Source: Caenibius sp. (GTDB lineage Bacteria; Pseudomonadota; Alphaproteobacteria; Sphingomonadales; Sphingomonadaceae). From it: a stretch of DNA of 37,266 nt. Every line of letters begins with the position of its first letter. Positions within the stretch are counted from its first letter, which is position 1. The stretch is from positions 1-37,266 of the forward strand of contig JAURML010000039.1 of the NCBI GenBank assembly GCA_030830695.1, in the 5' to 3' direction. The notes under the pieces were generated by a model. That model was not told where the DNA came from. It saw only the letters and a program-made list of their open reading frames with translations, and ran no database searches. Position numbers and translations under genes: made by a program. Shown piece by piece: positions 1-18,196 of this stretch.

Positions 1-53
1 AAAAGCCCTGGCATGCTGGTTTCGTGGGCATTCGAAGTGGGAGTACAACAGTC

Positions 54-1613
54 GTGAGCACGCGCATGCCCCATGGCGTCGACGCCGCAACCTTTCGCAA
101 GGCGCTGGACGAACTGGCCGCGATCGTCGGCAAGGAATGGGTCTTTGTCGACGATCTGCCGTTGTCGGCTTATCGCGATGCCTATTCGCCGCTGGCCGAT
201 GGCGAAATGCTGCCTTCGGCTGCCGTGGCGCCGGCAAACATGGACCAGATCCAGCAGGCGTTGAAAGTCTTCAACGCCTACAAGCTGCCGATCTGGACCT
301 TCGGCAACGGCCGCAATTTCGCCTATGGCGGCCCGGCCCCGCGCCAGTCCGGTTATGTCATGTTCGACCTCAAGCGGATGAACCGCATTCTCGAAGTCAA
401 CGAGAAATACGGCTATGCGCTGGTCGAACCGGGCGTTTCCTATTTTCAGCTTCACCGCCATCTGCGCAAGATCGGCAGCAAGCTTTGGGTCGATCCTGCG
501 GCACCAGGTTGGGGCGGCGTCATGGGCAACGCGCTTGAACATGGCGCGGGTTACACCCCCTACGGCGATCACTTCGTTATGCAGTGCGGCATGGAAGTGG
601 TCCTTGCCGACGGTCAGGTCGTCCGCACCGGTCAGGGCGCGATCGAGGGGTCGCAGCATTGGCAATCCACCAAGCATGCAGCCGGCCCGCATTTTGATGG
701 CATGTTCACTCAGTCCAATTTCGGCATTGTTACCAAGATGGGTATCTGGTTGATGCCCGAACCGCCGGGCTACAAGCCGTTCATGATCACTTACGAGCGC
801 GAGGAAGACCTTGCCGCAATCTTCGACGCGGTCAAACCGCTCAAGGTTAACCAGGTGATTCCCAACGCCGCGGTGGCGGTCGATCTCTTGTGGGAAGTGT
901 CCGCCAAGACCACACGCCGCCATTACTTCGATGGCAAGGGCCCTATCCCGGATTCGATCCGCAAGAAGATCGCGTCGGATCATGGCCTGGGCATGTGGAA
1001 CTTCTACGCCGCGCTCTATGGTCCGCCGCCGGTCATTGAGAACAACTGGAAGCTCGTCGAGGAAGCGATGATGAGCATTCCGGGTGCCAAGCTGCACCTC
1101 AACCGCGATAACGATCCCGCCTGGGACTATCGCGTGCAACTGATGCGCGGCGAGCCGAACATGACCGAATTCAGCATCATGAACTGGATCGGCGGCGGCG
1201 GGCATATCAACTTCTCGCCGATCTCGGCACCCGACGGCAAGGAAGCGCTGAGCCAGTATAACCTGATCAAACAGCGCTGCCACGATTTCGGGTTCGACTA
1301 TATCGGCGAGTTCCTGGTCGGCTGGCGCGACATGCACCACATCCTGATGATCATGTACGATCGCGCCGACGACGGCATGCGCAAGAGCGCCTATGACCTG
1401 TTCGGCAAGCTGGTAGACGAGGCAGCCGGTGCGGGCTTCGGCGAATACCGCACCCACCTCGCCTTCATGGACCAGATTGCCAAGACCTATAAGCACAACG
1501 ATGGGGCGCTGTGGGACCTGCACCACCGTCTCAAGGACGTGCTCGACCCCAACGGCATCCTCTCCCCCGGCAAGCAGGGGATATGGCCCCAGGCGATGCG
1601 CAACCAAGCGTAA
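54..1613 (+). CDS. VAO/PCMH-family flavoprotein dehydrogenase (probable catalytic alpha subunit)
   Basis: Flavoprotein of the vanillyl-alcohol oxidase / 4-cresol dehydrogenase family, expected to oxidise a para-substituted phenol (alkylphenol or hydroxybenzylic alcohol) through a quinone methide and pass electrons to the cytochrome encoded at 6307. Seen: the FAD pyrophosphate loop GRNFAYGG near residue 90, a VAO-like GYTPYGDH segment, and a C-terminal stretch very like VAO. His384 in GGGGHINFSP aligns with the histidine that carries covalent FAD in fungal VAO. Tyr465-Arg466 in GEYRTHLAFMD match the VAO phenolate-binding Tyr-Arg pair. I chose the GTG at 54 because GGGAG lies about 10 bases upstream. 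The ATG at 66 and a GTG at 24 are alternatives. The product of about 519 residues is normal for the family. No signal peptide is visible. It is the first gene of the operon in this window; family is secure, substrate is not. Confidence 0.9.
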   Translation: MSTRMPHGVDAATFRKALDELAAIVGKEWVFVDDLPLSAYRDAYSPLADGEMLPSAAVAPANMDQIQQALKVFNAYKLPIWTFGNGRNFAYGGPAPRQSGYVMFDLKRMNRILEVNEKYGYALVEPGVSYFQLHRHLRKIGSKLWVDPAAPGWGGVMGNALEHGAGYTPYGDHFVMQCGMEVVLADGQVVRTGQGAIEGSQHWQSTKHAAGPHFDGMFTQSNFGIVTKMGIWLMPEPPGYKPFMITYEREEDLAAIFDAVKPLKVNQVIPNAAVAVDLLWEVSAKTTRRHYFDGKGPIPDSIRKKIASDHGLGMWNFYAALYGPPPVIENNWKLVEEAMMSIPGAKLHLNRDNDPAWDYRVQLMRGEPNMTEFSIMNWIGGGGHINFSPISAPDGKEALSQYNLIKQRCHDFGFDYIGEFLVGWRDMHHILMIMYDRADDGMRKSAYDLFGKLVDEAAGAGFGEYRTHLAFMDQIAKTYKHNDGALWDLHHRLKDVLDPNGILSPGKQGIWPQAMRNQA

Positions 1614-1654
1614 TCACACGGCCGGCTGAACAAAGACTTCAAGGATTGACGACC

Positions 1655-3100
1655 ATGACGCAAATTGAGCACTGGATTGGCGGCACCGCCGTGGCTGCAA
1701 CGGGCGGGGCCTATTTCGACGATCTTAACCCGGTCGATGATTCGGTCTATTCCCGGGTTCCCGCCGGCACCGCGGAAGACGTGAACCGCGCCGTGGAGAA
1801 CGCGCATCAGGCCTATCTCCAGCATCGCGATCTGCCCGCCGCAGTGCGCGAAGGGTGGATCGCGAAAGCCGCCGAAATCATGGAGCGCGATACCGCCAAA
1901 TTCGCCGACGTGCTGGTCGACGAAATCGGTTCGCCGATCGCCAAGGCCGGGTTCGAAACCCGCTTCGCGGTCAGCTTCCTGCGCGCGGCGATCGGCGTGC
2001 CGCGCCGGATTCGGGGGGAAACGATCCCTTCGGACACCCCTGGGCGGTTCAGCATGAGCCTGCGCCAGCCGGTCGGTGTGGTCGCCGGGATTACCCCGTT
2101 CAACGTGCCGCTGATCAAGGGGATCAAACAGTCGGCCATGGCCCTGGCCACAGGCAACGCCTTCGTGCTGCTACCCTCGGAAGCCGCGCCAATGATCGCC
2201 GATCTGCTCGCTAAATTGTGGAAGGAGGCCGGCGTTCCCGACGGCTTGTTCAACGTGGTCTACGGCAATGGCGCGGAGATCGGCGACGTGCTGACCGGCC
2301 ATCCCAAGGTCGCATCGATAACCTTCACCGGGTCCTCGCGCGTCGGCAAGCACATCGCCGAAATCGCGGCCCGCAACCTCAAGAAGTACACGCTGGAGCT
2401 GGGCGGCAAGAGCCCGCTGGTGATCTGCGCCGATGCCGATCTGGACAAGGCGGTCAACGCCGCGCTGTTCAGCATCTTCATGTACCAGGGCCAGGTCTGC
2501 ATGGGGGCTTCGCGGATCTATGTGGAACGGTCGATCTTCGACCAGTTCGCCAAGGCCTTCGCCGCCGCGACAGGCCGCGCCAACAGCGGCGACCTGCGCG
2601 ATCCTACCACCATGCTGGGCCCGATAATTTCCGAACGCCAGCGCGACCGGGTCCGCCGCCACATCGACGATGCCCGGTCCAAGGGCGCAGAGCTGCTAGC
2701 CGGTGCTGAGTGGAACGGAAACGTATGCTCAGCGACGGTACTGCGCGGCGTTACAGCCGAAATGACCGTGTTCGAGGAAGAGACCTTCGGCCCGGTCACC
2801 TCGCTCTTTCCGTTCGACACACTTGAGGAAGCCCTCGAACTCGCCAACAACACCGAATACGGCCTCAGCGCCTCTATCTTCACCCGCGATCTCGACAAGG
2901 CGCTGGCCTTTGCCCAGCGGGCCGAAGCGGGGATGGTCCACATCAACGCGCCGACCCTGCACGACGAGCCGCACGTTCCGTTCGGCGGAACGAAGGCCTC
3001 TGGGTTCGGGCGCGAAGGCACCGAAGCCGATCTCGAGATCATGACCGAATGGAAATGGGTCACGATCCAGTCGGCGACTGCGGGCGCGGGCGGACACTAA
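1655..3100 (+). CDS. NAD(P)-dependent aromatic aldehyde dehydrogenase (vanillin/benzaldehyde dehydrogenase type)
   Basis: Oxidises an aldehyde, probably a hydroxylated benzaldehyde, to the carboxylic acid. Seen: the nucleotide-binding FTGSSRVGK segment, general base Glu248 in LELGGKSP, and nucleophile Cys282 in YQGQVCMGASR. The GQ(V/I)CM context and the C-terminal INAPTLHDEPHVPFGG segment are typical of vanillin, benzaldehyde and salicylaldehyde dehydrogenases rather than betaine or fatty aldehyde enzymes. The 481-residue length is standard. The ATG at 1655 is preferred because the reading frame upstream of it only overlaps the preceding gene. It lies 41 bases after the flavoprotein gene and 19 before the decarboxylase gene, so it links side-chain oxidation to decarboxylation. 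Exact substrate is inferred from context. Confidence 0.9.
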   Translation: MTQIEHWIGGTAVAATGGAYFDDLNPVDDSVYSRVPAGTAEDVNRAVENAHQAYLQHRDLPAAVREGWIAKAAEIMERDTAKFADVLVDEIGSPIAKAGFETRFAVSFLRAAIGVPRRIRGETIPSDTPGRFSMSLRQPVGVVAGITPFNVPLIKGIKQSAMALATGNAFVLLPSEAAPMIADLLAKLWKEAGVPDGLFNVVYGNGAEIGDVLTGHPKVASITFTGSSRVGKHIAEIAARNLKKYTLELGGKSPLVICADADLDKAVNAALFSIFMYQGQVCMGASRIYVERSIFDQFAKAFAAATGRANSGDLRDPTTMLGPIISERQRDRVRRHIDDARSKGAELLAGAEWNGNVCSATVLRGVTAEMTVFEEETFGPVTSLFPFDTLEEALELANNTEYGLSASIFTRDLDKALAFAQRAEAGMVHINAPTLHDEPHVPFGGTKASGFGREGTEADLEIMTEWKWVTIQSATAGAGGH

Positions 3101-3119
3101 CAGGCGGGATGCAACGGCA

Positions 3120-4574
3120 ATGAACGATCTCCCCAACCGCGCCCGCTCGATCTCGTCGCTGCGCGACTTCCTCGAACTGCTCGAGGATGCCGGTCAGGCG
3201 ATCACCTGGAGCGATGCGGTGATGCCCGAACCCGGCGTGCGCAACATAGCCGTCGCCGCATCGCGCGATGCCAACGGCGCGCCGGCGATCGTATTCGACA
3301 ATATCACCGGTTATCCCGGCAAGCGCCTGGCGGTGGGCGTCCATGGTTCGTGGGACAACATCGCCCTGCTGCTGGGCCGGCCCAAGGGCACGACCATCCG
3401 CGAGCTGTTCTTCGAGATCGCCGGGCGCTGGGGCGATCAGGAAGCGCAAATCAGTTATGTTCCCGAAGCCCAGGCCCCGGTGCACGAATGCCGACTCGAG
3501 CAGGACATCAACCTCTATGACATCCTGCCCGTCTATCGGATCAACGAATACGATGGCGGGTTCTACATCGGCAAGGCTTCGGTCGCATCGCGCGATCCGC
3601 TCGATCCCGATAACTTCGGCAAGCAGAATGTCGGCATCTATCGCCTGCAGATCCAGGGGCCGGACAGCTTTACCCTGATGACGATCCCCTCCCACGACAT
3701 GGGACGTCAGATCATGGCGGCCGAACGGGAAGGCGTTCCGCTCAAGATTGCGGTCATGCTGGGCAATCATCCCGGCCTTGCGGTGTTTGCTGCCACCCCG
3801 ATCGGCTACGAGGAATCGGAATATTCCTATGCCTCGGCGATGATGGGCGCACCGATCCGACTGACCAAATCGGGCAACGGGATCGATATCCTCGCCGACA
3901 GCGAAATCGTGATCGAGGCCGAGCTGCAACTGGGAGAACGCGAGCTGGAAGGGCCGTTCGGCGAATTTCCCGGTTCCTACAGCGGCGTGCGCAAGGCGCC
4001 GATCTTCAAGGTCACGGCGGTGTCGCACCGGCGCGATCCGATCTTCGAGAACATCTACATCGGGCGCGGCTGGACCGAGCACGATACCCTGATCGGCCTG
4101 CACACCTCCGCCCCGATCTATGCCCAGCTGCGCCAGAGCTTCCCCGAAGTCACCGCGGTCAACGCGCTTTACCAGCACGGATTGACCGGGATCATCTCGG
4201 TCAAGAACCGCATGGCCGGCTTTGCCAAGACGGTCGCGCTGCGCGCGCTGAGCACGCCGCACGGCGTGATGTACCTCAAGAACCTGATCATGGTCGATGC
4301 CGATGTCGATCCGTTCGATCTCAACCAGGTGATGTGGGCGCTTTCGACCCGCACCCGTGCGGACGATATCATCGTGCTGCCCAACATGCCTGCCGTTCCG
4401 ATCGATCCTTCGGCAGTGATCCCAGGCAAGGGGCACCGCCTGATCATCGACGCAACCAGCTATCTCCCGCCCGATCCGGTGGGTGAAGCGCACCTTGTCA
4501 CCCCGCCGACCGGGGACGAGATCGACGCCCTGAGCAAGCGGATCCGCGAAATGCAGCTGGGAGCCCTGTCATGA
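3120..4574 (+). CDS. UbiD-family hydroxyarylic acid decarboxylase, large (C) subunit
   Basis: Prenylated-FMN-dependent non-oxidative decarboxylase, expected to convert a 4-hydroxybenzoate- or vanillate-type acid to the phenol. Seen: 484 residues, full UbiD fold length, with conserved blocks NVGIYRLQIQG, TIPSHDMGRQI and the acidic EGPFGEFPGSYSG segment that contributes to the active site. The next gene encodes the small zinc-ribbon D subunit, which is diagnostic of the VdcBCD/ShdBCD/BsdBCD group and argues against the ubiquinone-biosynthesis UbiD. The B subunit (UbiX-like prenyltransferase) is not in the window, so prenyl-FMN must come from elsewhere. The gene starts 19 bases after the aldehyde dehydrogenase gene and overlaps the D-subunit gene by ATGA, suggesting translational coupling. 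Confidence 0.88.
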   Translation: MNDLPNRARSISSLRDFLELLEDAGQAITWSDAVMPEPGVRNIAVAASRDANGAPAIVFDNITGYPGKRLAVGVHGSWDNIALLLGRPKGTTIRELFFEIAGRWGDQEAQISYVPEAQAPVHECRLEQDINLYDILPVYRINEYDGGFYIGKASVASRDPLDPDNFGKQNVGIYRLQIQGPDSFTLMTIPSHDMGRQIMAAEREGVPLKIAVMLGNHPGLAVFAATPIGYEESEYSYASAMMGAPIRLTKSGNGIDILADSEIVIEAELQLGERELEGPFGEFPGSYSGVRKAPIFKVTAVSHRRDPIFENIYIGRGWTEHDTLIGLHTSAPIYAQLRQSFPEVTAVNALYQHGLTGIISVKNRMAGFAKTVALRALSTPHGVMYLKNLIMVDADVDPFDLNQVMWALSTRTRADDIIVLPNMPAVPIDPSAVIPGKGHRLIIDATSYLPPDPVGEAHLVTPPTGDEIDALSKRIREMQLGALS

Positions 4575-4795
4575 CCACCACCGTCTGCGGGCGCTGCAAA
4601 TCGAGCGGCGCTGTCACCGATCATCAGGGCAGGCAGGACGGCGCGGTCGTGTGGACGATCCTGCGCTGCCCGACCTGCAACTTTTCCTGGCGCGACAGCG
4701 AACCGGCCCGCGCTATCGACCCGGCTGTGCGCTCGGCCGATTTCGCCGTCGATGCCGGCGATCTCCAGCGTTATCCCAAGATTCTCCAGCAATAA
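4571..4795 (+). CDS. Hydroxyarylic acid decarboxylase small (D) subunit, zinc-ribbon protein
   Basis: Small partner of the UbiD-type decarboxylase, 74 residues. Seen: two CxxC pairs (CGRC near residue 6 and CPTC near residue 37) followed by NFSWRDSEP, which closely resembles the YTWRDTEP segment of BsdD/VdcD proteins. The spaced cysteines probably bind one metal ion. The start codon overlaps the stop of the large subunit (ATGA at 4571-4574) and 13 bases separate it from the next gene. The family's D subunits are required for activity in some systems, but their exact role is not settled. Recognition rests on the SWRDSEP motif, the cysteine pairs and the fixed C-D gene order. Confidence 0.85.
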   Translation: MTTTVCGRCKSSGAVTDHQGRQDGAVVWTILRCPTCNFSWRDSEPARAIDPAVRSADFAVDAGDLQRYPKILQQ

Positions 4796-4808
4796 GGCTC
4801 CCAACGCC

Positions 4809-6275
4809 ATGATCGATCAAGCCCGCCAGACGGCCACGCTCGGCACCCTCGCCCAGGCACTGGGCAAGGCCGCCGTCGATACCAGCCCGCAGACCCTGGC
4901 CCGCTATGCTGTCCCAGGGATGGCACCGGCAGGCGTGGTGCTTCCGGCCGATGAAGCCCAGCTCGCCAAGGTGCTGGAAGCTGCGCGCACCAGCGGCGGT
5001 GTGGTCCAGACGGTCTGCAACGGCGCCTACGGACTTGAAAAAGCCGTACAGGACAAGGTGATCGTGCTTGACCTGCAGAAGATGAACAAGGTCCTCGAGG
5101 TCAATGACGAACTGGCCACCTGCCTAGTCGAACCGGGCGTCACCTTCCGCCAGCTCGATGCCCACATCAAGGAAAAAGGAATAAAGCTGTGGGTCGACTT
5201 TCCCGGCAATCCCGATGAAAGCGTGGCCGCCAGTTTCATCAACCGCCGCCCCGGCTACACCCCCTATTCCGATCACTTCCTGATGCAGTGCGGGCTCGAG
5301 GTCATGCTGGCTGATGGCAAGATGGTGCGCACCGGCATGGGCGCCATGCCCAAGAGCACCTGCTGGCAGCTGTTCAAGTTCGGCTATGGCCCTTGGGTTG
5401 ATGGCCTGTTCACCCAGTCGGATTTCGGGGTGGTGACCAAGGTGGGCATGTGGATGATGCCGCAGCCCCCGGCGCACCAGACCTTCATGGTTTCGGTCCC
5501 CAAGGAGGACGATCTGGGCGCATTACTGGACGTGCTCGGGCCGCTCAAGCTCAACATGGTGGTGGCAAATGGCGTCGCGGTGGGCAATGCGCTCCACGAA
5601 GCGGCCCTGCTCGGCAAGCGCCGCGCTGATTTTGAGGGCCAGGGGCCGATGGCGGCAAGCGCGGTCAAGGCAGCCGGCGAGGCGCTCGGCTTGGGCTACT
5701 GGAACCTCTACGGCTCGCTCTATGGATTGCCCGGCAACGTCGCGATTCTGTGGGACATGGTCAAGGGTGCATTCTCGTCGATCAGCGGCGCACGGGTGAT
5801 TACCGATAGCAAGGGCATCGATCCCAAGCTGTGGGCCTGGCGGATGGGCACGATGACCGGGGTGGTTTCCGATCCCCCGGCCAGGACCGCGGGCTGGAGC
5901 GGCGACATGGCGCTTACGGTCAACCCGGTCAGCCCTGTGGATGGCGAGGAAGCCGTCAAGCTTTATGAACTGTCGCGCGATATCTGTGCCAAGAACGGCT
6001 TCGACTTCGTTGGCGAAACCACCGCGATCTGGCGTTCGGCCAACCATCGCCAGGTGCTGTCCCATGCCGCCGGCAAGGCCGAGGATGCGGCACGGGCCAA
6101 GACTTGCGCCGAAGCCCTGATCGCCGCGCAGGCCGAGGCCGGCTTCGGCCAGATCCTGACCGACCCCGGGCTGGGGGCGGCGGTTGCCAAGACCTATGAA
6201 AAGGGTGGCCGCTCGGCCCTGCATGCGAGGGTCAAGCAGGCGCTCGATCCCAACTCGATCTTTGCCTCGGTCTGA
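4809..6275 (+). CDS. Degenerate VAO/PCMH-family paralogue, probably non-catalytic (alpha-prime) subunit
   Basis: Clearly a paralogue of the flavoprotein at 54: it shares GYTPYSDHFLMQCGLEV, the LADGKMVRTGMGAMP segment and DGLFTQSDFGVVTKVGMWMMPQP. Key cofactor and catalytic features are missing. The FAD pyrophosphate loop GRNFAYGG is replaced by CNGAYGLEKAV. The position of the FAD-linking histidine is Ala368. The Tyr-Arg substrate pair is replaced by Ile-Leu in GFGQILTDPG. The frame is open over 488 residues without internal damage, so it is not a decaying pseudogene but a protein kept for another role, most simply a structural partner of the active flavoprotein. Start ATG at 4809 is 13 bases after the decarboxylase small subunit. 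A changed cofactor or substrate is the alternative. Confidence 0.82.
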   Translation: MIDQARQTATLGTLAQALGKAAVDTSPQTLARYAVPGMAPAGVVLPADEAQLAKVLEAARTSGGVVQTVCNGAYGLEKAVQDKVIVLDLQKMNKVLEVNDELATCLVEPGVTFRQLDAHIKEKGIKLWVDFPGNPDESVAASFINRRPGYTPYSDHFLMQCGLEVMLADGKMVRTGMGAMPKSTCWQLFKFGYGPWVDGLFTQSDFGVVTKVGMWMMPQPPAHQTFMVSVPKEDDLGALLDVLGPLKLNMVVANGVAVGNALHEAALLGKRRADFEGQGPMAASAVKAAGEALGLGYWNLYGSLYGLPGNVAILWDMVKGAFSSISGARVITDSKGIDPKLWAWRMGTMTGVVSDPPARTAGWSGDMALTVNPVSPVDGEEAVKLYELSRDICAKNGFDFVGETTAIWRSANHRQVLSHAAGKAEDAARAKTCAEALIAAQAEAGFGQILTDPGLGAAVAKTYEKGGRSALHARVKQALDPNSIFASV

Positions 6276-6306
6276 GCCGATGCGTCGCCATGCCTGCGGA
6301 GGTACA

Positions 6307-6672
6307 ATGAACAAGCTCCTCGTCCTTTCGCTCCTCGCCACTCTTGGCGCCTGTTCGTCCAGGCAAGGCGAAGTGGTCGCGGATGGTGCGGAGAACTATG
6401 AGCGCTACTGCGCCGGTTGCCACAACCCCGGCCCCGGACACGGAGCGACCATGCTGCTGGCGGAAAAGGGCCGTCCGGTTCCGGCACTGATCGGCCGCAA
6501 GGATCTGGAATACGACTACCTCCATTCGGTGGTTCGCCAGGGCCTGATCGAAATGCCGCCGTTCCGCCCAACCGAATTGTCGGATACGGAAATCAAGCAG
6601 ATCTACGAGCACATCATGGCGCAGAAGCTTCCCCCCGCGAAGGCCGAACCCGCCAAAAACAAGGCATTGTGA
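6307..6672 (+). CDS. Lipoprotein c-type cytochrome, electron acceptor of the flavoprotein
   Basis: Single-haem cytochrome c of 121 residues, expected to accept electrons from the VAO-type flavoprotein and deliver them to the respiratory chain. Seen: a short hydrophobic leader ending in the lipobox LGAC (lipidated Cys16, followed by Ser, so retention in the inner membrane is not predicted), the haem motif CAGCH at residues 35-39, and a likely axial Met83 in IEMPPFRPTELS. That segment resembles the methionine region of cytochrome subunits of PCMH-type flavocytochromes. The tail is Lys/Ala/Pro-rich. GGAGG sits 4 bases before the ATG at 6307. It is the last gene of the operon, 31 bases after the alpha-prime gene. 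Lipidation would make the complex membrane-tethered. Confidence 0.88.
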   Translation: MNKLLVLSLLATLGACSSRQGEVVADGAENYERYCAGCHNPGPGHGATMLLAEKGRPVPALIGRKDLEYDYLHSVVRQGLIEMPPFRPTELSDTEIKQIYEHIMAQKLPPAKAEPAKNKAL

Positions 6673-7090
6673 GGTCAAATCAAGCTGGGCGGAAAAGGTC
6701 GACAGGGTTCGTAAGGCAGAAATTGCTAGGGCGCCAACGGAGTATGCGGATAGCTGGTTGCTTCGGTGAGCACGCACATTGTGTTTGATAGGCGTCATTA
6801 TCGATAGCTATGGTACACAAGTGATCGCTTAGTTACGCTGTTGTCTGGTTCCGCTCGCCGCACGACAAAAAGCGCGTTTGGTCCAGTTTTCCTCGTTGGC
6901 CCGGTTGGCCTTACGCTCGGCAGCATAGCCTTCTTGGGAATTTTAGCTCGGTACAATCGCATGCCGGTATTTGCGTGGGTTTGTTCAGTTTCGGGCTTAT
7001 TGTCCAACTCATAAGGTCGCGGTAACGCTTGAAGAACTCCTCACCAGCACTGCACCTGAACCGAATGATATCATATGACGAGTGGAATTT
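6673..7090. other. Gene-free interval between the flavocytochrome operon and gcdH
   Basis: About 420 bases, visibly richer in A+T than the preceding operon. I find no convincing gene. One open frame on the + strand (roughly 6810-7013) would encode a hydrophobic stretch but has no good start or ribosome-binding site. No hairpin with a T-run was found after the cytochrome gene. The interval must hold the gcdH promoter; a 10-base motif shared with another promoter region lies at 6999-7008. Confidence 0.6.
6999..7008. promoter_or_regulatory. Candidate regulator-binding motif upstream of gcdH
   Basis: ATTGTCCAAC, about 80 bases before the gcdH start. The identical 10-mer occurs at 27005-27014 between the divergent IclR-regulator and desaturase genes, and a more symmetric version, ATTGTGCAAT, lies at 21914-21923 in front of the hydratase operon. 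The half-site pattern ATTG-N2-CAAY suits a dimeric regulator such as the IclR protein encoded at 26086. This is a pattern match only. Confidence 0.3.
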
Positions 7091-8275
7091 ATGATCGAGA
7101 TGACACGCTTTGATTGGAGCGATCCCTTCAACTTCGACGATCAACTGACTGAAGAAGAACGAATGGTGCGTGATTCGGCTCATGGCTTCGCGCAAGGCGA
7201 ACTTCAGCCCCGGGTCATCAATGCCGTCCGCGAAGAGCTGGATGCAGCAGAGTTGTTTCCACTCATGGGACAAGCCGGCTTGCTTGGAGCGACGATCCCA
7301 CAATCTTATGGCGGTGCTGGAGCTGGCTATGTCTCCTACGGTCTGATCGCGCGTGAGATTGAGCGCGTGGATTCGGGCTATCGGTCAATGGCATCGGTGC
7401 AAAGCTCGCTCGTCATGTATCCGATTTTTGCTTTCGGCTCGGAGGAACAGCGGTTTAAATATCTGCCTGGCCTAGCCGCAGGCTCACTGATCGGCTGCTT
7501 CGGCCTGACAGAACCTGATGCGGGATCTGATCCTGCGGGCATGCGCACAATCGCGAAGAGGATTGATGGTGGCTATGTCCTTTCCGGCGTCAAAACATGG
7601 ATTTCGAATGCTCCTTTCGCCGACGTCTTTGTCGTCTGGGCAAAGAGCGAAGCACATGATGGGGCCATTTGCGGCTTCGTGCTTGAAAAGGGCCTGAAGG
7701 GGCTTTCCGCTCCCAAGATCAAGGGCAAGCTCAGCCTGCGCGCCTCGACCACCGGCATGATCGTGATGGATGAGGTTGAGGTTGACGAAGAAGCCTTGCT
7801 CCCCGGGGTCCAGGGCCTCAAGGGCCCCTTCGATTGCCTAAACCGCGCACGCTATGGGATCAGTTGGGGAGCGCTCGGCGCAGCAGAATATTGCATGCAC
7901 GCAGCCCGCCAATATGGGCTTGATCGGCACCAGTTTGGAAAGCCGCTTGCCGCCAACCAACTCTATCAAAAGAAGCTCGCCGATATGCAAACAGACATTG
8001 CGCTAGGGTTGCAAGCCTCATTGCGTGTCGGCCGCCTAATGGATGAAGGCAGGTTCACGCCGGAGATGGTCTCTCTCGTCAAGCGTAACAATGTCGGAAA
8101 ATCGCTTGATATTGCGCGCCATGCCCGAGACATGCACGGCGGTAATGGCATCAGCGATGAATATCAAGTCATGCGGCACATGGTGAATCTGGAAACCGTC
8201 AACACCTATGAAGGCGCGCACGATGTGCACGCGCTCATCCTTGGTCGAGCACTCACTGGCATTGCCGCATTCTAG
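7091..8275 (+). CDS. gcdH: Glutaryl-CoA dehydrogenase
   Basis: FAD enzyme that oxidises and decarboxylates glutaryl-CoA to crotonyl-CoA and CO2, a step in lysine, tryptophan and aromatic ring degradation. Seen: acyl-CoA dehydrogenase fold with the [12 protein letters not shown] flavin-contact segment. The C-terminal blocks [29 protein letters not shown] and [21 protein letters not shown] are highly specific to the glutaryl-CoA subgroup, with the catalytic base Glu in TYEGAHD. The protein has 394 residues from the ATG at 7091, which has GAGTGGA just upstream; the GTG at 7082 or ATG at 7100 are possible. Its base composition looks less GC-rich than the flavoprotein operon, which may mean a different origin. 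It stands alone on the + strand, convergent with the acyl-CoA degradation operon. Confidence 0.93.
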
Positions 8276-8306
8276 GGCAGGCCACCTTTCTTCTTCAGTG
8301 TTGCGC

Positions 8307-8314
8307 TGCCTGGT
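8307..8314. repeat. Left copy of the 8-bp target-site duplication (TGCCTGGT)
   Basis: TGCCTGGT directly precedes the left end of the IS66-family element and is repeated exactly at 11088-11095 directly after its right end. Eight base pairs is the duplication length characteristic of IS66-family insertions. A perfect pair suggests a fairly recent, intact insertion. Confidence 0.93.
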
Positions 8315-8336
8315 GTATCCATCCGGCGAGGGCCGC
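8315..8336. repeat. Left terminal inverted repeat of the IS66 element
   Basis: Begins GTATCCATCCGGCGAG. Aligned with the reverse complement of 11066-11087 it matches at 17 of 22 positions. The exact inner limit of the repeat is uncertain. Confidence 0.85.
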
Positions 8337-8343
8337 GGCGGTG

Positions 8344-8577
8344 TCAGGCGCCTTTCATGAACTCTGAGCGGCGATCATCAAGGAGCTCTTCAAGGTAGTC
8401 GAGGCCTCGGCGCGTGAAGGCGGTAACGGATTCCGCGTCTTCGTCGAGGCTGTCGATGACACTGACGCAGCCGTCTTCTGGCGACATTTGCCCCGCCAGT
8501 TCTTCGATAACGTCGATATCGACCCCGAGGCGACGTGCGGCATAGCGGACTGTGAAGACCATGGAAGGGGCTGCCAT
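8344..8577 (-). CDS. Small IS66-associated passenger protein of unknown function
   Basis: Encodes 77 residues. The start codon is interlocked with the tnpC stop (TGATG around 8575-8579), so it is almost certainly translated with the transposase. Seen: no membrane segment; a hydrophobic/basic N-terminal part (VFTVRYAARRLG), then a strongly acidic C-terminal half with DSLDEDAES and YLEELLDDRRSE, probably helical. I recognise no catalytic motif and do not know a function. Its position suggests a transposition accessory or regulatory role, but it could be a passenger of no use to the element. Confidence 0.7.
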   Translation of the reverse strand: MAAPSMVFTVRYAARRLGVDIDVIEELAGQMSPEDGCVSVIDSLDEDAESVTAFTRRGLDYLEELLDDRRSEFMKGA

Positions 8578-10223
8578 CAGGCGGCCTTTGCGACCGAGCT
8601 CGATGGCTTCCAGTTCCAGGGCAGGAGTTCGTCGAGCCGGCTGACCGGGTGATCGGCGATGCGTGCGAGCACGTCGGCGAGCCAGGCTTGCGGATCGACA
8701 TCGTTCAGGCGCGCGGTCTGGATCACCGTGTACAGGACGGCCGCGCGCTGTCCGCCGCGATCGGATCCGCAGAACAGCCAGGCCTTCCGGCCGAGCGGCA
8801 CGCAGCGGAGGGCACGTTCGGCGGCGTTGTTGGTCAGACAGACCCGGCCATCGTTGAGGAAGCGAGTAAAGGCGTCCCAGCGGCGCAGCATATAGTTGAT
8901 GGCCTTGGCGAGATCGTGGTTGCGCGAGAGCCTGGCGAGTTGGGTGGTGAGCCAGGTGTGAAGCTCGGCCATGAGCGGTGCGCTCAGCTCCCTGCGGGCA
9001 GCGAGGCGCTCGGTGGCATCCTTGCCATTGATGGCGCGCTCGACATCGAACAGAGCATCGATCCGCTGCACGGCCTCGAGCGCGATCGGGTAGATCATGC
9101 CGGCATGCTCCCATCGGCTCTTCTTGCGAGCAGCGCTGGCGACGTCGGCCAGTTCGAAGAACTTGCGCCGTGCGTGGGCGAAGCAGCCGGCCTCGAGCAC
9201 CGGCGCAGGTATGCGACCGGGAGCATAGAGCTCGCCGTACCCGCCATAGGCGTCAGCCTGCAGAATGCCTGACCACGATGCGAGATGCGCCCTTGGATGA
9301 TCGCCGCGCCGATCTCGCGAGTAGTGGAACAGCGCCGCGGGTGGATCGGTGCCGGCGAAAGGTCGATCATCGCGCACGTAGACCCACAATCGGGCGGTAT
9401 CGGTCTTCACCTTGGCCATGACCGGTACGGTCGTATCGTCGCCATGCAATCGCTCGGCGGCGAGGACGTGTGCCTTAATCAGCCGGTAGAGCGGCATCAG
9501 CGCAAAGGCGGCGGCCCCGACCTGGTCGGCAAGCGTCGAAGTGCTCAGTGACACGCCCTCGCGGGCGAAGCGCTCGGCCTGGCGGTTGAGCGGCTGATGC
9601 TGGCCGTACTTCTCGAACAGCAGCATGGCGAGGAAGCTCGGGCCCGCCCAGCCACGTGGCACGACGTGAAAGGGCGCCGGTGGCTGCGTGATCGTCTCGC
9701 AGTCCCGGCAGGAGAACTTCTCGCGCACGGTCTGGATGACCTTCCAGGCGCGCGGGATCACCTCGAGCGTCTCGGTGACGTCCTCGCCGAGCTTGGAGAG
9801 CCGGCTGCCGCCACAGGCCGGGCAAGAGCACGGCGCCGGCACGACGACGCGATCGCGCGGCAGATGCTCGGGAAACGGCTTCCTGGCCGGCCGCTTGCGT
9901 TCGAAGGCGGTAACGGTCGCGGTCATCTCGGCCGCAACGTCGGCAGCAAGATCGTCCTCGGCCGCGTCGGCCTCGAGATCTTCGAGCTGCAGTTCCATCT
10001 GGTCGAGCAGCCGGCGGGTGCGTTCGGCGCTGGCGCCGTACTGCTCGCGCCTGAGCTTGGCGATCTGCAGCTTGAGGTGCGCGATCACGGCCTCGGTGGC
10101 GCTCTCGCGGGCATGGGCATTGGCGAGCTTGGCCTCGGCCTCATTGGCCCGCTGGGTCGCGCTCGCCAGCAGCGCCTTGAGCGCTTCGATATCGTCAGGA
10201 AGGGGCGAAACGGCGGCTTCCAT
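8577..10223 (-). CDS. tnpC: IS66-family transposase (TnpC)
   Basis: DDE-type transposase of about 548 residues. Seen, in order: an N-terminal Ala/Glu/Leu-rich coiled-coil, a Lys/Arg-rich linker, a CSCPACGG zinc-binding segment, and the catalytic core with LHGDDTTVPVM (first Asp), LQADAYGGYGE (second Asp) and NNAAERALR (Glu), followed by the GSDRGGQRAAVLYTVIQTA block typical of the family C terminus. No frameshift or stop interrupts it, so the protein appears functional. The ATG at 10223 (MEAAVSPLP) is preferred; an in-frame TTG at 10265 with GGAG upstream is possible. It lies 72 bases downstream of tnpB and overlaps the passenger gene. Confidence 0.95.
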   Translation of the reverse strand: MEAAVSPLPDDIEALKALLASATQRANEAEAKLANAHARESATEAVIAHLKLQIAKLRREQYGASAERTRRLLDQMELQLEDLEADAAEDDLAADVAAEMTATVTAFERKRPARKPFPEHLPRDRVVVPAPCSCPACGGSRLSKLGEDVTETLEVIPRAWKVIQTVREKFSCRDCETITQPPAPFHVVPRGWAGPSFLAMLLFEKYGQHQPLNRQAERFAREGVSLSTSTLADQVGAAAFALMPLYRLIKAHVLAAERLHGDDTTVPVMAKVKTDTARLWVYVRDDRPFAGTDPPAALFHYSRDRRGDHPRAHLASWSGILQADAYGGYGELYAPGRIPAPVLEAGCFAHARRKFFELADVASAARKKSRWEHAGMIYPIALEAVQRIDALFDVERAINGKDATERLAARRELSAPLMAELHTWLTTQLARLSRNHDLAKAINYMLRRWDAFTRFLNDGRVCLTNNAAERALRCVPLGRKAWLFCGSDRGGQRAAVLYTVIQTARLNDVDPQAWLADVLARIADHPVSRLDELLPWNWKPSSSVAKAA

Positions 10224-10295
10224 GACCGCGATGGAATCACAGAACCCCGCCCGAATGAAGCGCAAAATGCTCCGCTGGAGAAGAAAGCGACGCCG

Positions 10296-10637
10296 CTATC
10301 CGGCGCTCCGCGGACGCCAGGAATACTGCGGGTTCCGCCAGTCGATCCCGTCGAGCAGGCAGGCCAGTTGCGAGGCTGTGAGCGACACCATGCCATCCTT
10401 CGCCGACGGCCAGACGAAGCGTCCCTTCTCGAGCCGCTTGGCGTAGAGCGACATGCCGATCCCATCGTGCCAGATCAGCTTCACCAGCGATCCGGCACGC
10501 CCGCGGAACACGAACAGGTCCCCGCCATGGGGATCGCGCTTCAGTCCCTGCTGGACCAGCAATGCGAGCCCCTGCATCCCCTTGCGCATATCAGTGTGCC
10601 CCATGGCGATCCACACCCGCGCGCCCGAAGGGATCAT
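10296..10637 (-). CDS. tnpB: IS66 family accessory protein TnpB (Orf2)
   Basis: 113 residues with the conserved IS66 Orf2 signature: GHTDMRKGMQGLALLVQ near the N terminus, then GGDLFVFRGRAGSLVKLIWHDG and a Lys/Arg-rich LYAKRLEKGRFVWP segment. It is required for transposition in IS66-type elements, though its biochemical role is not established. The start overlaps the tnpA stop (ATGA at 10634-10637), indicating coupled translation. Confidence 0.94.
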   Translation of the reverse strand: MIPSGARVWIAMGHTDMRKGMQGLALLVQQGLKRDPHGGDLFVFRGRAGSLVKLIWHDGIGMSLYAKRLEKGRFVWPSAKDGMVSLTASQLACLLDGIDWRNPQYSWRPRSAG

Positions 10638-11002
10638 CGCAGCGCCTTCAAGGCCGCCGCCACCAGCGCTGGCGATGCCGAGGCAAAGATGCTGATCCGC
10701 TTGCCGCGCGCCAGGTCGATGACGACGGCGGGCTGCAGACCGGCGCGAGCGGGTTCCGCGTCCTCAATCATCACGGCTGCGGCGAAATCGGGAGCTTGCA
10801 AATCATCCGGTTCTGGCTCGGCGTAAACATCGCGCAGCTTGCGCCGCCAGGTGTAGACCAGGGCTGTCGATACATCGCGCCGCCGGGCGACCTCGGCGAC
10901 GCAGGCGCCGGGCGCAAAGGCCTCGTTCAGGATCTCCAGCCGTTCCTCGTCACTCCAACGGCGACGCCGCTCCGGCCCGGAAAATACCGTGATCTGCCCC
11001 AT
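10634..11002 (-). CDS. tnpA: IS66 family DNA-binding protein TnpA (Orf1, HTH)
   Basis: 122 residues. The N-terminal half is a Tn3/IS3-type helix-turn-helix: RRRRWSDEERLEILNEAF, then CVAEVARRRDVSTALVYTWRRKL. The C-terminal half carries the VIDLARGKRISI segment common to IS66 Orf1 proteins. AGGAG lies 7 bases before the ATG at 11002. It is the first gene of the element and would be transcribed from just inside the right end. Confidence 0.93.
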   Translation of the reverse strand: MGQITVFSGPERRRRWSDEERLEILNEAFAPGACVAEVARRRDVSTALVYTWRRKLRDVYAEPEPDDLQAPDFAAAVMIEDAEPARAGLQPAVVIDLARGKRISIFASASPALVAAALKALR

Positions 11003-11011
11003 CGACCGCTC

Positions 11012-11040
11012 CTAAGCGCACTCTTAAGAGCGCACTTAAG
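11012..11040. promoter_or_regulatory. Palindrome/direct-repeat cluster upstream of tnpA
   Basis: The segment holds the perfect 10-bp palindrome CTCTTAAGAG at 11021-11030 and two direct copies of GCGCACT around it, just outside the tnpA ribosome-binding site and about 50 bases inside the right end. It is a plausible promoter/operator or transposase-binding site of the element. Function is inferred from symmetry and position only. Confidence 0.4.
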
Positions 11041-11065
11041 ACCGGTCGCTTACCTCATCGGCAAG

Positions 11066-11087
11066 GCGGGACCCACCGGATGGGTAC
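11066..11087. repeat. Right terminal inverted repeat of the IS66 element
   Basis: Read on the minus strand it begins GTACCCATCCGGTGGG and pairs with the left end at 8315-8336, 17 of 22 positions. It is followed directly by the second TGCCTGGT copy. Confidence 0.85.
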
Positions 11088-11095
11088 TGCCTGGT
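11088..11095. repeat. Right copy of the 8-bp target-site duplication (TGCCTGGT)
   Basis: Exact copy of 8307-8314 on the other side of the element, fixing its right boundary at 11087. Confidence 0.93.
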
Positions 11096-11150
11096 CGCAG
11101 CAACAATCGTTGTGTCGAGTGAGCGGAAACGACGGAGCGTGGCGGCCGCC

Positions 11151-12326
11151 TCAATAGCTTCGCGGTAGTTTCAGGACATGCTCTGCGATGAACGACAATA
11201 TGAGATTGGTCGAAACAGGTGCCACCTGATAAAGGCGGGCCTCTCGAAATTTCCGTTCGATGTCGTATTCCTCAGCAAAGCCATATCCGCCATATGTCTG
11301 GATGCAGGCGTTGCCCGCTTCGACTGCTACGTCCGCGGCAAGCATTTTTGCCATGTTCGCCTCGGGTCCATGTTCAAGCCCCGCTTCGTAAAGGCGCGCG
11401 GCCTCATGGACCATGAGCTCGGCAGCGCGCATATTTGCGTGGGCTCGCGCGATCGGGAAAGAGACGCCCTGGTTCATGCCAATGGGGCGATCGAAAACCA
11501 CCCGTTGATTGGCATAAGCAATGGATTTTCGGGTAAACCATTTTGCATCACCGACGCATTCGGCAGCAATAAGAACTCTTTCCGCATTCATGCCCGAAAG
11601 GATGCAATGAAAGCCCTTGCCTTCTTTGCCTAAGAGATTGCCGACCGGGATGCGCATCCTGTCGAAGAAAAGTTCCGTCGTGGCATGGTTCATCATGGTG
11701 CGGATAGGCCGGATCGTTAGCGAACCCGCGGTGCGAGCCTGGTTCATATCGACGATGAATATGGAAAGACCGTCGGTTTTCTTCGTCACTTGATCGCGCG
11801 GCGAAGTCCGCGCTAGCAGCAGCATGAGATCGCTGTGTTCGGCGCGACTGGTCCAGATTTTCTGGCCGCTCACCACAAAATAGTCCCCATCGCGAACTGC
11901 CGTCGTCCTTAACGCAGTGGTATCGGAGCCGCTTCCCGGCTCGGTTACGCCGAAAGCCTGCAAGCGCAGTGCGCCGCTTGCGATCGCGGGCAGATAAAGG
12001 CGCTTTTGCTCATCCGATCCATGTCTGAGGATGATGGCCATGTTATACATCTGGGCATGGCATGCCGCTCCGTTGCAACCCATCGCTTGAATCGTCTCAA
12101 GGATGGCAACTGCAGCCGAAAGGCCCAGACCTGATCCGCCATATTCCTCGGGTATGAGCACCGAAAGATAGCCAGCGCTCGTCAACGCATCCACAAAGGA
12201 GGTCGGATATTCGCGATCAGCGTCGAGCTTGCGCCAATATTCACCCGGGAACTTTTCACACAGCCGGCGCACGCCGTCGCGGATTTCGTGAAAGTGTTGA
12301 GGTTCGAAAGGACTAAGAAACTGCAT
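11151..12326 (-). CDS. Acyl-CoA dehydrogenase lacking the usual C-terminal catalytic Glu
   Basis: FAD enzyme that introduces an alpha,beta double bond into an acyl-CoA. Seen: acyl-CoA dehydrogenase fold over 391 residues, with FGVTEPGSGSDTTALRT (flavin/substrate segment) and CIQTYGGYGFAEEYDIERKFREARLY near the C terminus. Where most members have YEGT with the catalytic base, this one reads LYQVAPVSTN, so Glu is absent there. A Glu in SGMNAERVLIAAE is at about the place used as base in isovaleryl- and long-chain acyl-CoA dehydrogenases, so the protein may still be active, probably on a branched or bulky acyl-CoA. The ATG at 12326 overlaps the end of the upstream MaoC gene by 14 bases. Last gene of the minus-strand operon. 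Confidence 0.87.
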   Translation of the reverse strand: MQFLSPFEPQHFHEIRDGVRRLCEKFPGEYWRKLDADREYPTSFVDALTSAGYLSVLIPEEYGGSGLGLSAAVAILETIQAMGCNGAACHAQMYNMAIILRHGSDEQKRLYLPAIASGALRLQAFGVTEPGSGSDTTALRTTAVRDGDYFVVSGQKIWTSRAEHSDLMLLLARTSPRDQVTKKTDGLSIFIVDMNQARTAGSLTIRPIRTMMNHATTELFFDRMRIPVGNLLGKEGKGFHCILSGMNAERVLIAAECVGDAKWFTRKSIAYANQRVVFDRPIGMNQGVSFPIARAHANMRAAELMVHEAARLYEAGLEHGPEANMAKMLAADVAVEAGNACIQTYGGYGFAEEYDIERKFREARLYQVAPVSTNLILSFIAEHVLKLPRSY

Positions 12327-13188
12327 CGCCCTCATCCTGAGAGATTGTGAAAAACCCTTGATCTGCAACGATGACGTCGCGCTCGAGCACCGATGCCCGA
12401 AAAGCGCCATTATTCCAGATTTCGGTTCTGATGGTTTCACCAGGGAACACCGGCGCGGCGAAACGCAGTTGCACTGCGCGCAGGCGCTCGGCCTGGTAGC
12501 CAAGTCGCCCGCGGAGGATGGCGTGAACGATGATGCCCATCGTGCCCAAGCCGTGCAATATCGGCATCCTGTACCCGGCGCGCGCCGCGATTGCGGGATC
12601 GCTGTGCAGCGGGTTGAGATCTCCATTGAGACGATAGATCAGGGCCTGTTCGGGACCGGTCGTCAGGTCAATGACAAGACCGGCATTGCCTTCCGCCACG
12701 GGTACCGGCGAACTTCGCGGTGCTTCGCCTTCCCCTCCGAACCCGCCGCCGCCGCGAATGAAGATCGTACGTTCAAGACAGGCAAAGCAGGTGCCGCGAT
12801 CATCGCGGATATTGGTTTCGGTGAATATCAACGCGGCCTTGCCCGCGCCTTTGTCGACAATGTGGGTGACGCGGGTTGTGCTTTCGACTTCGCCAGTTGC
12901 CGGAACCGGGCCAAGCAGTACCATGGATTGGCCGGCATGCAGGACGGAAACCGGATCTACACCGGAATCAGGGTGCCCCAGCCAGAACCCGGGACTCGCG
13001 AGAACGAGCGCCATGCCGGGCATGGCAACCGGTCCACGAAGGGGATCCACGAATGGCAGCTGCGCGAGGTCGGTAGGATCTCGCCCCATCCCGATCGATA
13101 AGGCGTAAAATGCAGCATCGCGTGGAGTGACGGTCTGACGAACCGCAGGAATACGAAAGTTGAGCAATTTTTGCGGATCGATTGTCAC
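12313..13188 (-). CDS. MaoC-like (hydratase 2) double-hotdog enoyl-CoA hydratase
   Basis: Expected to hydrate a trans-2-enoyl-CoA to the (R)-3-hydroxyacyl-CoA. Seen: 291 residues, the length of a two-hotdog MFE-2-like hydratase. The N-terminal hotdog starts with RDAAFYALSIGMGRDP. The C-terminal hotdog carries the hydratase-2 signature RLNGDLNPLHSDPAIA with the catalytic Asp and His, followed by PILHGLGTMGI. The GTG at 13188 is chosen because AGGGA lies about 8 bases upstream and similarity starts soon after; the frame stays open further upstream. It is 22 bases downstream of the mesaconyl-CoA hydratase-like gene and overlaps the next dehydrogenase gene. With the SDR at 19377 it would form a split MFE-2-type beta-oxidation pair. 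Confidence 0.87.
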   Translation of the reverse strand: MTIDPQKLLNFRIPAVRQTVTPRDAAFYALSIGMGRDPTDLAQLPFVDPLRGPVAMPGMALVLASPGFWLGHPDSGVDPVSVLHAGQSMVLLGPVPATGEVESTTRVTHIVDKGAGKAALIFTETNIRDDRGTCFACLERTIFIRGGGGFGGEGEAPRSSPVPVAEGNAGLVIDLTTGPEQALIYRLNGDLNPLHSDPAIAARAGYRMPILHGLGTMGIIVHAILRGRLGYQAERLRAVQLRFAAPVFPGETIRTEIWNNGAFRASVLERDVIVADQGFFTISQDEGDAVS

Positions 13189-13210
13189 TTTCAATTTCCC
13201 TGGAAGGTGG

Positions 13211-14071
13211 TCAAAGGGTGGCGCTGGCAACCATGATCGGACGGCCATCGCGCGCATGGGCGACGAACTGAACACTATTGCCGTTCGCGCGAAGCGCCAA
13301 ATGCAGTTCCTCGCCGCAGATCGCGGCAGACACCGCTCGGCAATCGAAGCACCGAAGCGCATTGTCGCCGAAGTGCTGCTGGGCGAGTTCCAGCAGCAGT
13401 GTCGCCGTCAACGGACCGTGAACGACGAGGCCGCGATACCCCTCGATTTCGCAGGTGTAGGCCCGATCATAATGAATCCGGTGACTGTTGAAGGTCAGCG
13501 CCGAAAATCGGAACAGCAAGGTTTCGGAGGGGACCAGCGCGCGGTGCGCAACCCATCGGGATCCGTCGAAGATCATGTCAGACGGCCTTGGCAGCTCTGC
13601 GGTGCCCAAAGGCATGGGATCCCGATAAACGATCGCTTGGGTTTCGCGAACGGAGAGTTCGCCTTCGCAGCGGGTTTCTTGTGCTATCTCGACGAAAACA
13701 AGCTTGCCGGTCGCCCCTTGCTTTTCGGCGATGGAATTGATCCGCGATCTGCGCTGCACCTTCTGACCGATGAGCAACGGCGAAAGAAATTCGATCTTGC
13801 TCGATGCCCACATCCGGCGCGACTGAGGAAGTGGTGGCATGAAGCTGCTTTCGCCGCCGCGCACCGGATGGCCATCCACGCTCAATGCCGCTGTTGGCGC
13901 GTCTGGCAGGCAAAGGCACCAATGATAGCCTTGCGGCACGCTGCCATCTGCCGGCGCAACGCGGTCGAAAGTCGCCAGCCACCGTCTTGCGGCAGCGAGT
14001 TCCAGATAGTCGTGACGCAATTCTTCACGACCGATCCAGCTTTGCCATTGTTCGTCTGGCTGGGTGGTCAT
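13211..14071 (-). CDS. Mesaconyl-C4-CoA / itaconyl-CoA hydratase-like protein (FAS1-like dehydratase, MaoC superfamily)
   Basis: 286 residues resembling 3-methylfumaryl-CoA (mesaconyl-C4-CoA) hydratase and itaconyl-CoA hydratase, which add water to a C5 dicarboxylic enoyl-CoA to give citramalyl-CoA. Seen: an N-terminal hotdog half with QGYHWCLCLPDAPTAAL and the GESSFMPPLPQSRRMWASS block typical of this group. The C-terminal half carries FNSHRIHYDRAYTCEIEGY and LVVHGPLTATLLLELA, with the HRIHYD and VVHGPL motifs of HTD2-like dehydratases. The start overlaps the stop of the methylsuccinyl-CoA dehydrogenase-type gene (ATGA at 14068-14071). Coupling to that enzyme and to the mesaconyl-CoA isomerase-type transferase supports the assignment; a larger substituted analogue as substrate is possible. 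Confidence 0.8.
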   Translation of the reverse strand: MTTQPDEQWQSWIGREELRHDYLELAAARRWLATFDRVAPADGSVPQGYHWCLCLPDAPTAALSVDGHPVRGGESSFMPPLPQSRRMWASSKIEFLSPLLIGQKVQRRSRINSIAEKQGATGKLVFVEIAQETRCEGELSVRETQAIVYRDPMPLGTAELPRPSDMIFDGSRWVAHRALVPSETLLFRFSALTFNSHRIHYDRAYTCEIEGYRGLVVHGPLTATLLLELAQQHFGDNALRCFDCRAVSAAICGEELHLALRANGNSVQFVAHARDGRPIMVASATL

Positions 14072-15660: not shown

Positions 15661-15662
15661 CT

Positions 15663-18088: not shown

Positions 18089-18124
18089 GGCGTTTGATCC
18101 GGCCCGCAGGCGAATTGGCGACGC

Positions 18125-18154
18125 GCCAGGGCAGGGCGGAATGAAACCCCTGGC
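18125..18154 (-). other. Possible intercistronic hairpin
   Basis: GCCAGGG (18125-18131) and CCCTGGC (18148-18154) can pair into a 7-bp stem in the 108-base gap between the acyl-CoA dehydrogenase and CoA-transferase genes. A competing GGGCGG/CCGCCC pairing overlaps it. No T-run follows. It may affect mRNA stability or be incidental to the GC-rich sequence. Confidence 0.3.
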
Positions 18155-18196
18155 CGCCCATGGTGCAGCCTGCGGATGAAGTGCAACCCACGAAGG

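Follow-up and report, generated by a model that had tools for sequence, protein, structure and literature searches.

A conserved, degenerate flavoprotein paralog in a sphingomonad operon suggests a flavocytochrome with an FAD-free pseudo-subunit

We analyzed a 37,266-nucleotide stretch of Caenibius sp. DNA (Sphingomonadaceae; contig JAURML010000039.1), hereafter the window, near the left end of which a plasmid-type operon, putatively for the catabolism of aromatic compounds (54–6672), encodes two paralogous flavoproteins of the VAO/PCMH family, denoted α and α′, and a lipoprotein cytochrome c, β. The α protein is intact, whereas α′ is degenerate at the active site. Judging from sequence, the three products probably constitute a periplasmic flavocytochrome in which α′ would be a pseudo-subunit devoid of flavin adenine dinucleotide (FAD). 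The original prediction for this DNA had proposed such a pair of an active and an inactive flavoprotein with a cytochrome partner, and the survey of related loci described below supports the joint occurrence of an intact paralog, a consistently degenerate one and the cytochrome.

The α gene (54–1613, plus strand; 519 aa), a 4-phenol-oxidizing flavoprotein gene, starts with the GTG at 54, which shares the letters GTGA with the stop codon of the upstream gene, and is fully open (54–1610 and the stop). Both domains of the VAO/PCMH family, FAD_binding_4 (PF01565, E 5e-33) and FAD-oxidase_C (PF02913, E 1e-30), are detected in the protein, which contains the FAD loop GRNFAYGG at residues 86–93, the catalytic Tyr91 and Tyr465-Arg466, and His384 at the FAD-linking position; the loop, the His and the Tyr-Arg pair are exactly as first read. 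The nearest solved structure is the vanillyl-alcohol dehydrogenase (VAD) of Marinicaulis flavus (E 5e-196). The flavin N5 is neighbored by Asp/Glu-Leu in the oxidases, by Asp-Pro, together with a linking His, in VAD, and by Ala-Pro (A154-P155), together with a linking Tyr, in PCMH (PMC7617285). In α, Ala150-Pro151 is combined with His384, so that the N5 pair is PCMH-like and the linking residue is VAO/VAD-like. This combination fits a cytochrome-linked dehydrogenase, with Pro and a small neighbor at the flavin N5 and a cytochrome gene in the same operon. The latter (β; 6307–6672, plus strand; 121 aa) encodes a lipobox (LGAC), a heme-binding CAGCH motif and a putative Met ligand, and its product matches the PCMH cytochrome weakly (E 2e-4); the lipoprotein cytochrome and its end coordinate, 6672, were both correctly called at the outset.

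The original prediction had also assigned a VAO-type His linkage to α. The His is present, but the linkage is not supported as worded, given that the Asp that helps flavinylation in VAO, EUGO and VAD (Asp or Glu in the oxidases) is Ala150 in α. For the covalent bond, this Asp is reported to be more important than the His, and a natural protein from Sphingobium in which Gly replaces the Asp carried no bound FAD when purified (PMC12507022). Because the assisting Asp is replaced, covalent attachment of FAD in α appears uncertain.

The α′ gene (4809–6275, plus strand; 488 aa) is likewise fully open (4809–6272 and the stop), and its product is 37–38% identical to α. The FAD loop is three residues shorter and reads CNGAYGLEK (70–78), Gly-Asn is the N5 pair (GNP, 133–135), Ala368 occupies the position of the linking His, Ile-Leu (in GQILTD) replaces Tyr-Arg, and the C-terminal PGKxGIW motif of α is gone; the losses in the loop, at the His and in the Tyr-Arg pair are precisely those initially reported. 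Among the Pfam domains, FAD_binding_4 is still recognized in α′ and FAD-oxidase_C is not. Motif losses of the same kind are found in all 20 representative α′ proteins (20/20), and orthologs down to 58% identity are alike, each encoded beside an intact α as far as the contig extends. Thus, the FAD pyrophosphate loop, the linking residue and the Tyr-Arg pair are all lost from α′ and the orthologs examined, and no intact FAD site was found in α′. The replacements vary by lineage (G-AYGL, A-VAGQ, P-GEGT, ASNVG), and a search for conserved new replacement residues across α′ returned none. The predicted model of α′ (32 family rows) has a pLDDT of 90.1 and matches VAD, the Novosphingobium vanillyl alcohol oxidase (nsVAO) and PCMH with TM 0.92 and Z 43–46. 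α′ is therefore predicted to keep the full VAO/PCMH fold while having lost the active-site chemistry and, by its residues, is a homologous pseudoenzyme rather than a functional family member.

The degenerate state is not a chance feature of one copy, because the losses recur in every ortholog down to 58% identity and the gene is under strong purifying selection. Across pairs, dN/dS is 0.06–0.20 for α′ compared with 0.03–0.13 for α, and the reading frame is open in every copy examined, as the original prediction had noted for the window copy. A gene preserved by selection in dozens of bacteria probably has a job, structural or regulatory.

The pair is widespread. Plasmid pNL1 of Novosphingobium aromaticivorans (NC_009426, NC_002033) is collinear with window positions 1–6776 at 96.5% DNA identity, and the cluster is also present on plasmids of Novosphingobium sp. 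ES2-1, Sphingobium yanoikuyae SJTF8 and S. fuliginis KK22 and in many Sphingomonadales genomes. Hence the cluster itself is not the new instance in sphingomonad-like bacteria that it had been taken for. The annotation of the two pNL1 genes stops at FAD-binding protein and FAD-binding oxidoreductase; genes of p-cresol catabolism on pNL1 are mentioned only briefly (PMC3946609), and no report of the dead-paralog relation on this plasmid was found in the literature searched. As far as that literature shows, what is new is the systematic pairing with a dead paralog and its origin independent of the Geobacter case discussed below. More distant α′ (~26–44% identity) are encoded in Parvularculaceae, Porticoccaceae, Cycloclasticus and other gammaproteobacteria, in metagenome-assembled genomes (MAGs) of Deltaproteobacteria/Myxococcota, and on Paraburkholderia plasmids pBN2 and pBN3. 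To these distant α′ also belong those of a second sphingomonad lineage (loci L053, L121, L126 and L129), in which the α, cytochrome and α′ genes are contiguous. Separately, a 4.5 kb contig binned to a Hoeflea MAG (L071) encodes an 80% identical α′ with VdcC/VdcD, which reflects either plasmid transfer or a binning error.

An intact α lies near α′ in 56 of the 61 α′ loci, collected in a scan driven by an α′ query in which some loci were fetched twice; the other five contigs end before the place of α (56/56 where it is reached). The reverse relationship was assessed with an α query against 396 Sphingomonadales genomes. All nine α homologs of at least 80% identity are accompanied by α′, VdcC, VdcD and the cytochrome (9/9), and both second-lineage α proteins found in this way are accompanied by α′ (2/2). 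In contrast to these close α proteins, α′ was not found in the fetched flanking DNA of the VAD-type proteins (G340, L098, L119), BpfA and the distant G802 and G870, even though a cytochrome gene accompanies those of the VAD-type proteins and BpfA. Therefore, α′ follows one part of the α family, and the second gene was never absent or broken in the homologous clusters examined. The constant partners of α′ are α and the cytochrome, while the gene order varies: it is α-cytochrome-α′ in L053, L096, L102 and L121, and α-cytochrome-aldehyde dehydrogenase-VdcC-VdcD-α′ in pBN2. Because the order is shuffled and yet the partners are kept, the linkage of the three genes is not passive. Other tandem paralog pairs were considered as candidate dead pairs and rejected; in L042, L043, L044 and L045, both members keep the His and Tyr-Arg.

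To our knowledge, an inactive flavoprotein partner had been known from one Geobacter enzyme only. The membrane-associated p-cresol methylhydroxylase of Geobacter metallireducens is reportedly an α/α′/β2 complex with an FAD-free α′, in which PcmI is α, PcmJ is α′ and PcmG is the cytochrome. When the columns with the diagnostic motifs are left out of the alignment, the 20 α′ representatives fall into a single group of the tree (SH-aLRT 100), and the Geobacter PcmJ-type proteins are sister to Geobacter PcmI (100). Forcing PcmJ-type proteins and α′ into one clade worsens the tree by 135 log-likelihood units, and a common origin is rejected by the approximately unbiased (AU) test (p 9e-37). Therefore, inactive partners evolved at least twice, and the likeness to the Geobacter system to which the original prediction had pointed is convergent, not homologous. 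Long-branch joining among the α′ groups was examined as a cause of their deep placement by placing the subgroups singly. Three of the four (ASNVG, sphingomonad, Cycloclasticus/Porticoccaceae) still branch close to the base of the His-type clade, not beside their own α; the fourth (L096/L097) joins the long L112 row, a weakly supported position. From these sequences, a single ancient origin of α′ is likely, not proven.

In L099 (7845–9413), L103 and L112, the degeneration differs in degree: the second paralog retains both the FAD loop and the His, and Leu-Lys (GELKAN) replaces Tyr-Arg. This paralog lies near another cytochrome and a Rieske-type oxygenase.

The left end of the window is inside a gene of which the final 18 codons and the stop remain (TatX C-terminus, KSPGMLVSWAFEVGVQQS*; 1–57, plus strand; WP_010891037 in pNL1). 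The relatives of this gene encode a 130–215 aa protein with a twin-arginine (Tat) signal, with full copies at L034:3683–4255, L056:2686–3252 and L124:1565–1975. Similar Tat-signal proteins adjoin signal-less α in sphingomonads, gammaproteobacteria, Aromatoleum, Geobacter and the bpf cluster. No signal peptide is present in α or α′ of the window cluster; in the second sphingomonad lineage, α carries its own Tat signal, and the small Tat gene was not found there. Pfam and NCBIfam searches with the TatX family gave just signal-peptide and marginal matches, and a middling predicted model (pLDDT 73) gave no convincing structural match. A natural reading of this arrangement is that the folded flavoprotein would be exported by hitchhiking on the Tat-signal protein. 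For BpfA, guidance by the cytochrome's own signal has been suggested instead (PMC12724174).

Building on the observed gene content, residue losses, linkage, selection, predicted fold and phylogeny, we infer a heteromer with an FAD-free α′, its export route and its substrate as follows. The operon product would be a flavocytochrome dehydrogenase of the periplasm, acting on 4-alkylphenols or 4-hydroxybenzylic alcohols. The FAD-containing α would oxidize the substrate to a quinone methide, to which water adds, and would pass the electrons to the lipoprotein cytochrome. α′ would most likely occupy, without FAD, the second place in a dimer of the VAO/PCMH type, where it might stabilize α, shape the surface for cytochrome docking or substrate access, or position the complex. 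The Tat-signal neighbor would probably export the folded α/α′ pair. The aldehyde dehydrogenase could then convert the aldehyde product to the acid, which VdcC/VdcD, together with UbiX, could decarboxylate.

Several points weigh against a flavocytochrome with an FAD-free pseudo-subunit, which we nevertheless regard as the best explanation and a probable one. Distances among α and among α′ are strongly correlated (18 pairs; Mantel r 0.93, p 1e-4), in favor of this explanation, but such correlation is also expected from plain co-inheritance and shows a stable pair, not contact. Loss of the covalent residue alone does not remove FAD; α′ may hold flavin or another ligand weakly, because nsVAO of Novosphingobium binds FAD non-covalently (PMC7617285). 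That precedent within the family, together with the strong purifying selection on α′ and the recognizable FAD_binding_4 domain, would also suit a second pathway enzyme built on the VAO fold but working with another cofactor, another substrate or a non-covalently bound flavin. We consider such an enzyme quite unlikely: the pyrophosphate loop, the N5-site residues, the His and Tyr-Arg have gone as a set, and what stands in their place differs between lineages, whereas a new shared active site would show conserved replacements. Further, α′ is often encoded immediately after VdcD (in sphingomonads, Parvularculaceae, Cycloclasticus and Paraburkholderia), so that it may serve as an accessory of the VdcC/VdcD decarboxylase and not of the flavocytochrome. 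This role is improbable. VdcC/VdcD are missing from the fetched DNA of seven of the 61 α′ loci (L053 and L128, from one genome, L102, L121, L122, L126 and L129), where α and the cytochrome adjoin α′, and adjacency to VdcD was rejected as the explanation of α′ on these grounds. In L096/L097, α′ comes after α and the cytochrome, with VdcC apart on the other strand; and α′ is a paralog of α.

Alternatively, α′ could be a chaperone or export partner that pairs with newly folded α in the cytoplasm, assisting its folding, its loading with FAD or its export by Tat, without remaining in the working enzyme. In most clusters, neither α nor α′ has a signal of its own and a Tat-signal protein adjoins α, as this explanation would have it. 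However, the VAD and BpfA proteins are likewise signal-less and do without α′, α′ is kept in the second sphingomonad lineage where α has its own Tat signal, and export would more obviously be the task of the Tat-signal protein; a chaperone role thus seems unlikely. Least credible is the view of α′ as a pseudogene in decay, or an annotation quirk, confined to a single plasmid lineage, and we give it hardly any weight: the catalytic motifs are gone and α′ evolves ~1.6 times faster than α, but the frame is open in every copy, the dN/dS values are low, and the gene is found in several proteobacterial groups.

With α′ as a pseudo-subunit, a broader generalization, for which we see even chances, is that VAO/PCMH flavocytochromes have repeatedly and independently recruited a dead flavoprotein copy as an obligate subunit. 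There would be an ancient proteobacterial origin, a Geobacter origin and a possible third in gammaproteobacteria, where only Tyr-Arg is lost; the products would be half-active heterodimers with one FAD, escorted by a Tat-signal protein. The single Geobacter case could pass as a local oddity. An independent, older and widespread dead partner under strong selection suggests that cytochrome-coupled phenol dehydrogenases gain in general from such a partner, a gain that is now testable. The analysis provides a hypothesis for two genes of pNL1-type catabolic plasmids annotated just as FAD-binding proteins, and ties the pair to a decarboxylation route. It also calls for caution, since annotation by overall similarity would count α′ as a second enzyme.

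Between α and α′, all on the plus strand, the operon encodes an aldehyde dehydrogenase (1655–3100; 481 aa; PF00171), the UbiD-family hydroxyarylic acid decarboxylase subunit VdcC (3120–4574; 484 aa; NF041204, 675.9 bits, cutoff 650) and the decarboxylase subunit VdcD (4571–4795; 74 aa; NCBIfam NF041205, 67.1 bits, cutoff 30), the gene of which overlaps that of VdcC. Both subunits exceed the NCBIfam cutoffs, as befits a VdcBCD-type decarboxylase; the UbiX-type subunit B is encoded upstream in pNL1 and relatives and would fall past the left end of this contig. VdcD, the Tat-signal protein C-terminus and the identity with pNL1 had no place in the original prediction. Further downstream, ~12 kb of acyl-CoA dehydrogenase, CoA-transferase and thiolase-like genes (6777–18900) lie between two pNL1-collinear blocks; they are not in pNL1, and the S. 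chungbukense locus L056 carries most of those in the part that it covers. Positions 8315–11086 are missing from the otherwise collinear L056 and contain a long minus-strand transposase-like frame (8577–10265), probably an IS66-type insertion, with the type judged by eye.

Among known systems, the pNL1 cluster has identical genes in identical order. VAD (8S7P; PMC7617285), the nearest solved relative of α and among the nearest of α′, shares with α the His at the covalent site and the Pro at the N5 site, and its cytochrome gene is directly downstream (L119); it differs in having Asp where α has Ala150, and its locus is without α′. The flavoprotein of the bisphenol F oxidoreductase BpfAB of S. 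yanoikuyae DN12 (PMC12724174) is 49% identical to α. Like the window, the bpf locus, examined in the SJTF8 copy, is on a sphingomonad plasmid and has a lipoprotein cytochrome and a Tat-signal neighbor; unlike the window, it has no α′, and a Baeyer-Villiger monooxygenase and a hydrolase, not VdcCD, are encoded downstream. In BpfA of SJTF8 (L138, on pF1), the FAD-linking position of the VAO type is occupied by a His (PNSVHMDF), although non-covalent FAD in BpfA has been argued from the missing PCMH Tyr (PMC12724174). PchF/PchC of Pseudomonas putida (1DII) shares with α the fold, the flavocytochrome principle and the Ala-Pro at the flavin N5, but is an α2β2 enzyme with two active FAD subunits linked through Tyr384. 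The G. metallireducens PCMH locus resembles the window cluster in plan, with an intact flavoprotein, a degenerate paralog and a cytochrome c encoded together. There, α′ comes from a separate duplication, the linking site of the PcmI-type α is Tyr rather than His, and the losses are milder: in the second paralogs of the relatives L124 and L125, GENE replaces GKNF in the loop, the linking Tyr is gone, and Asn replaces the Tyr of Tyr-Arg.

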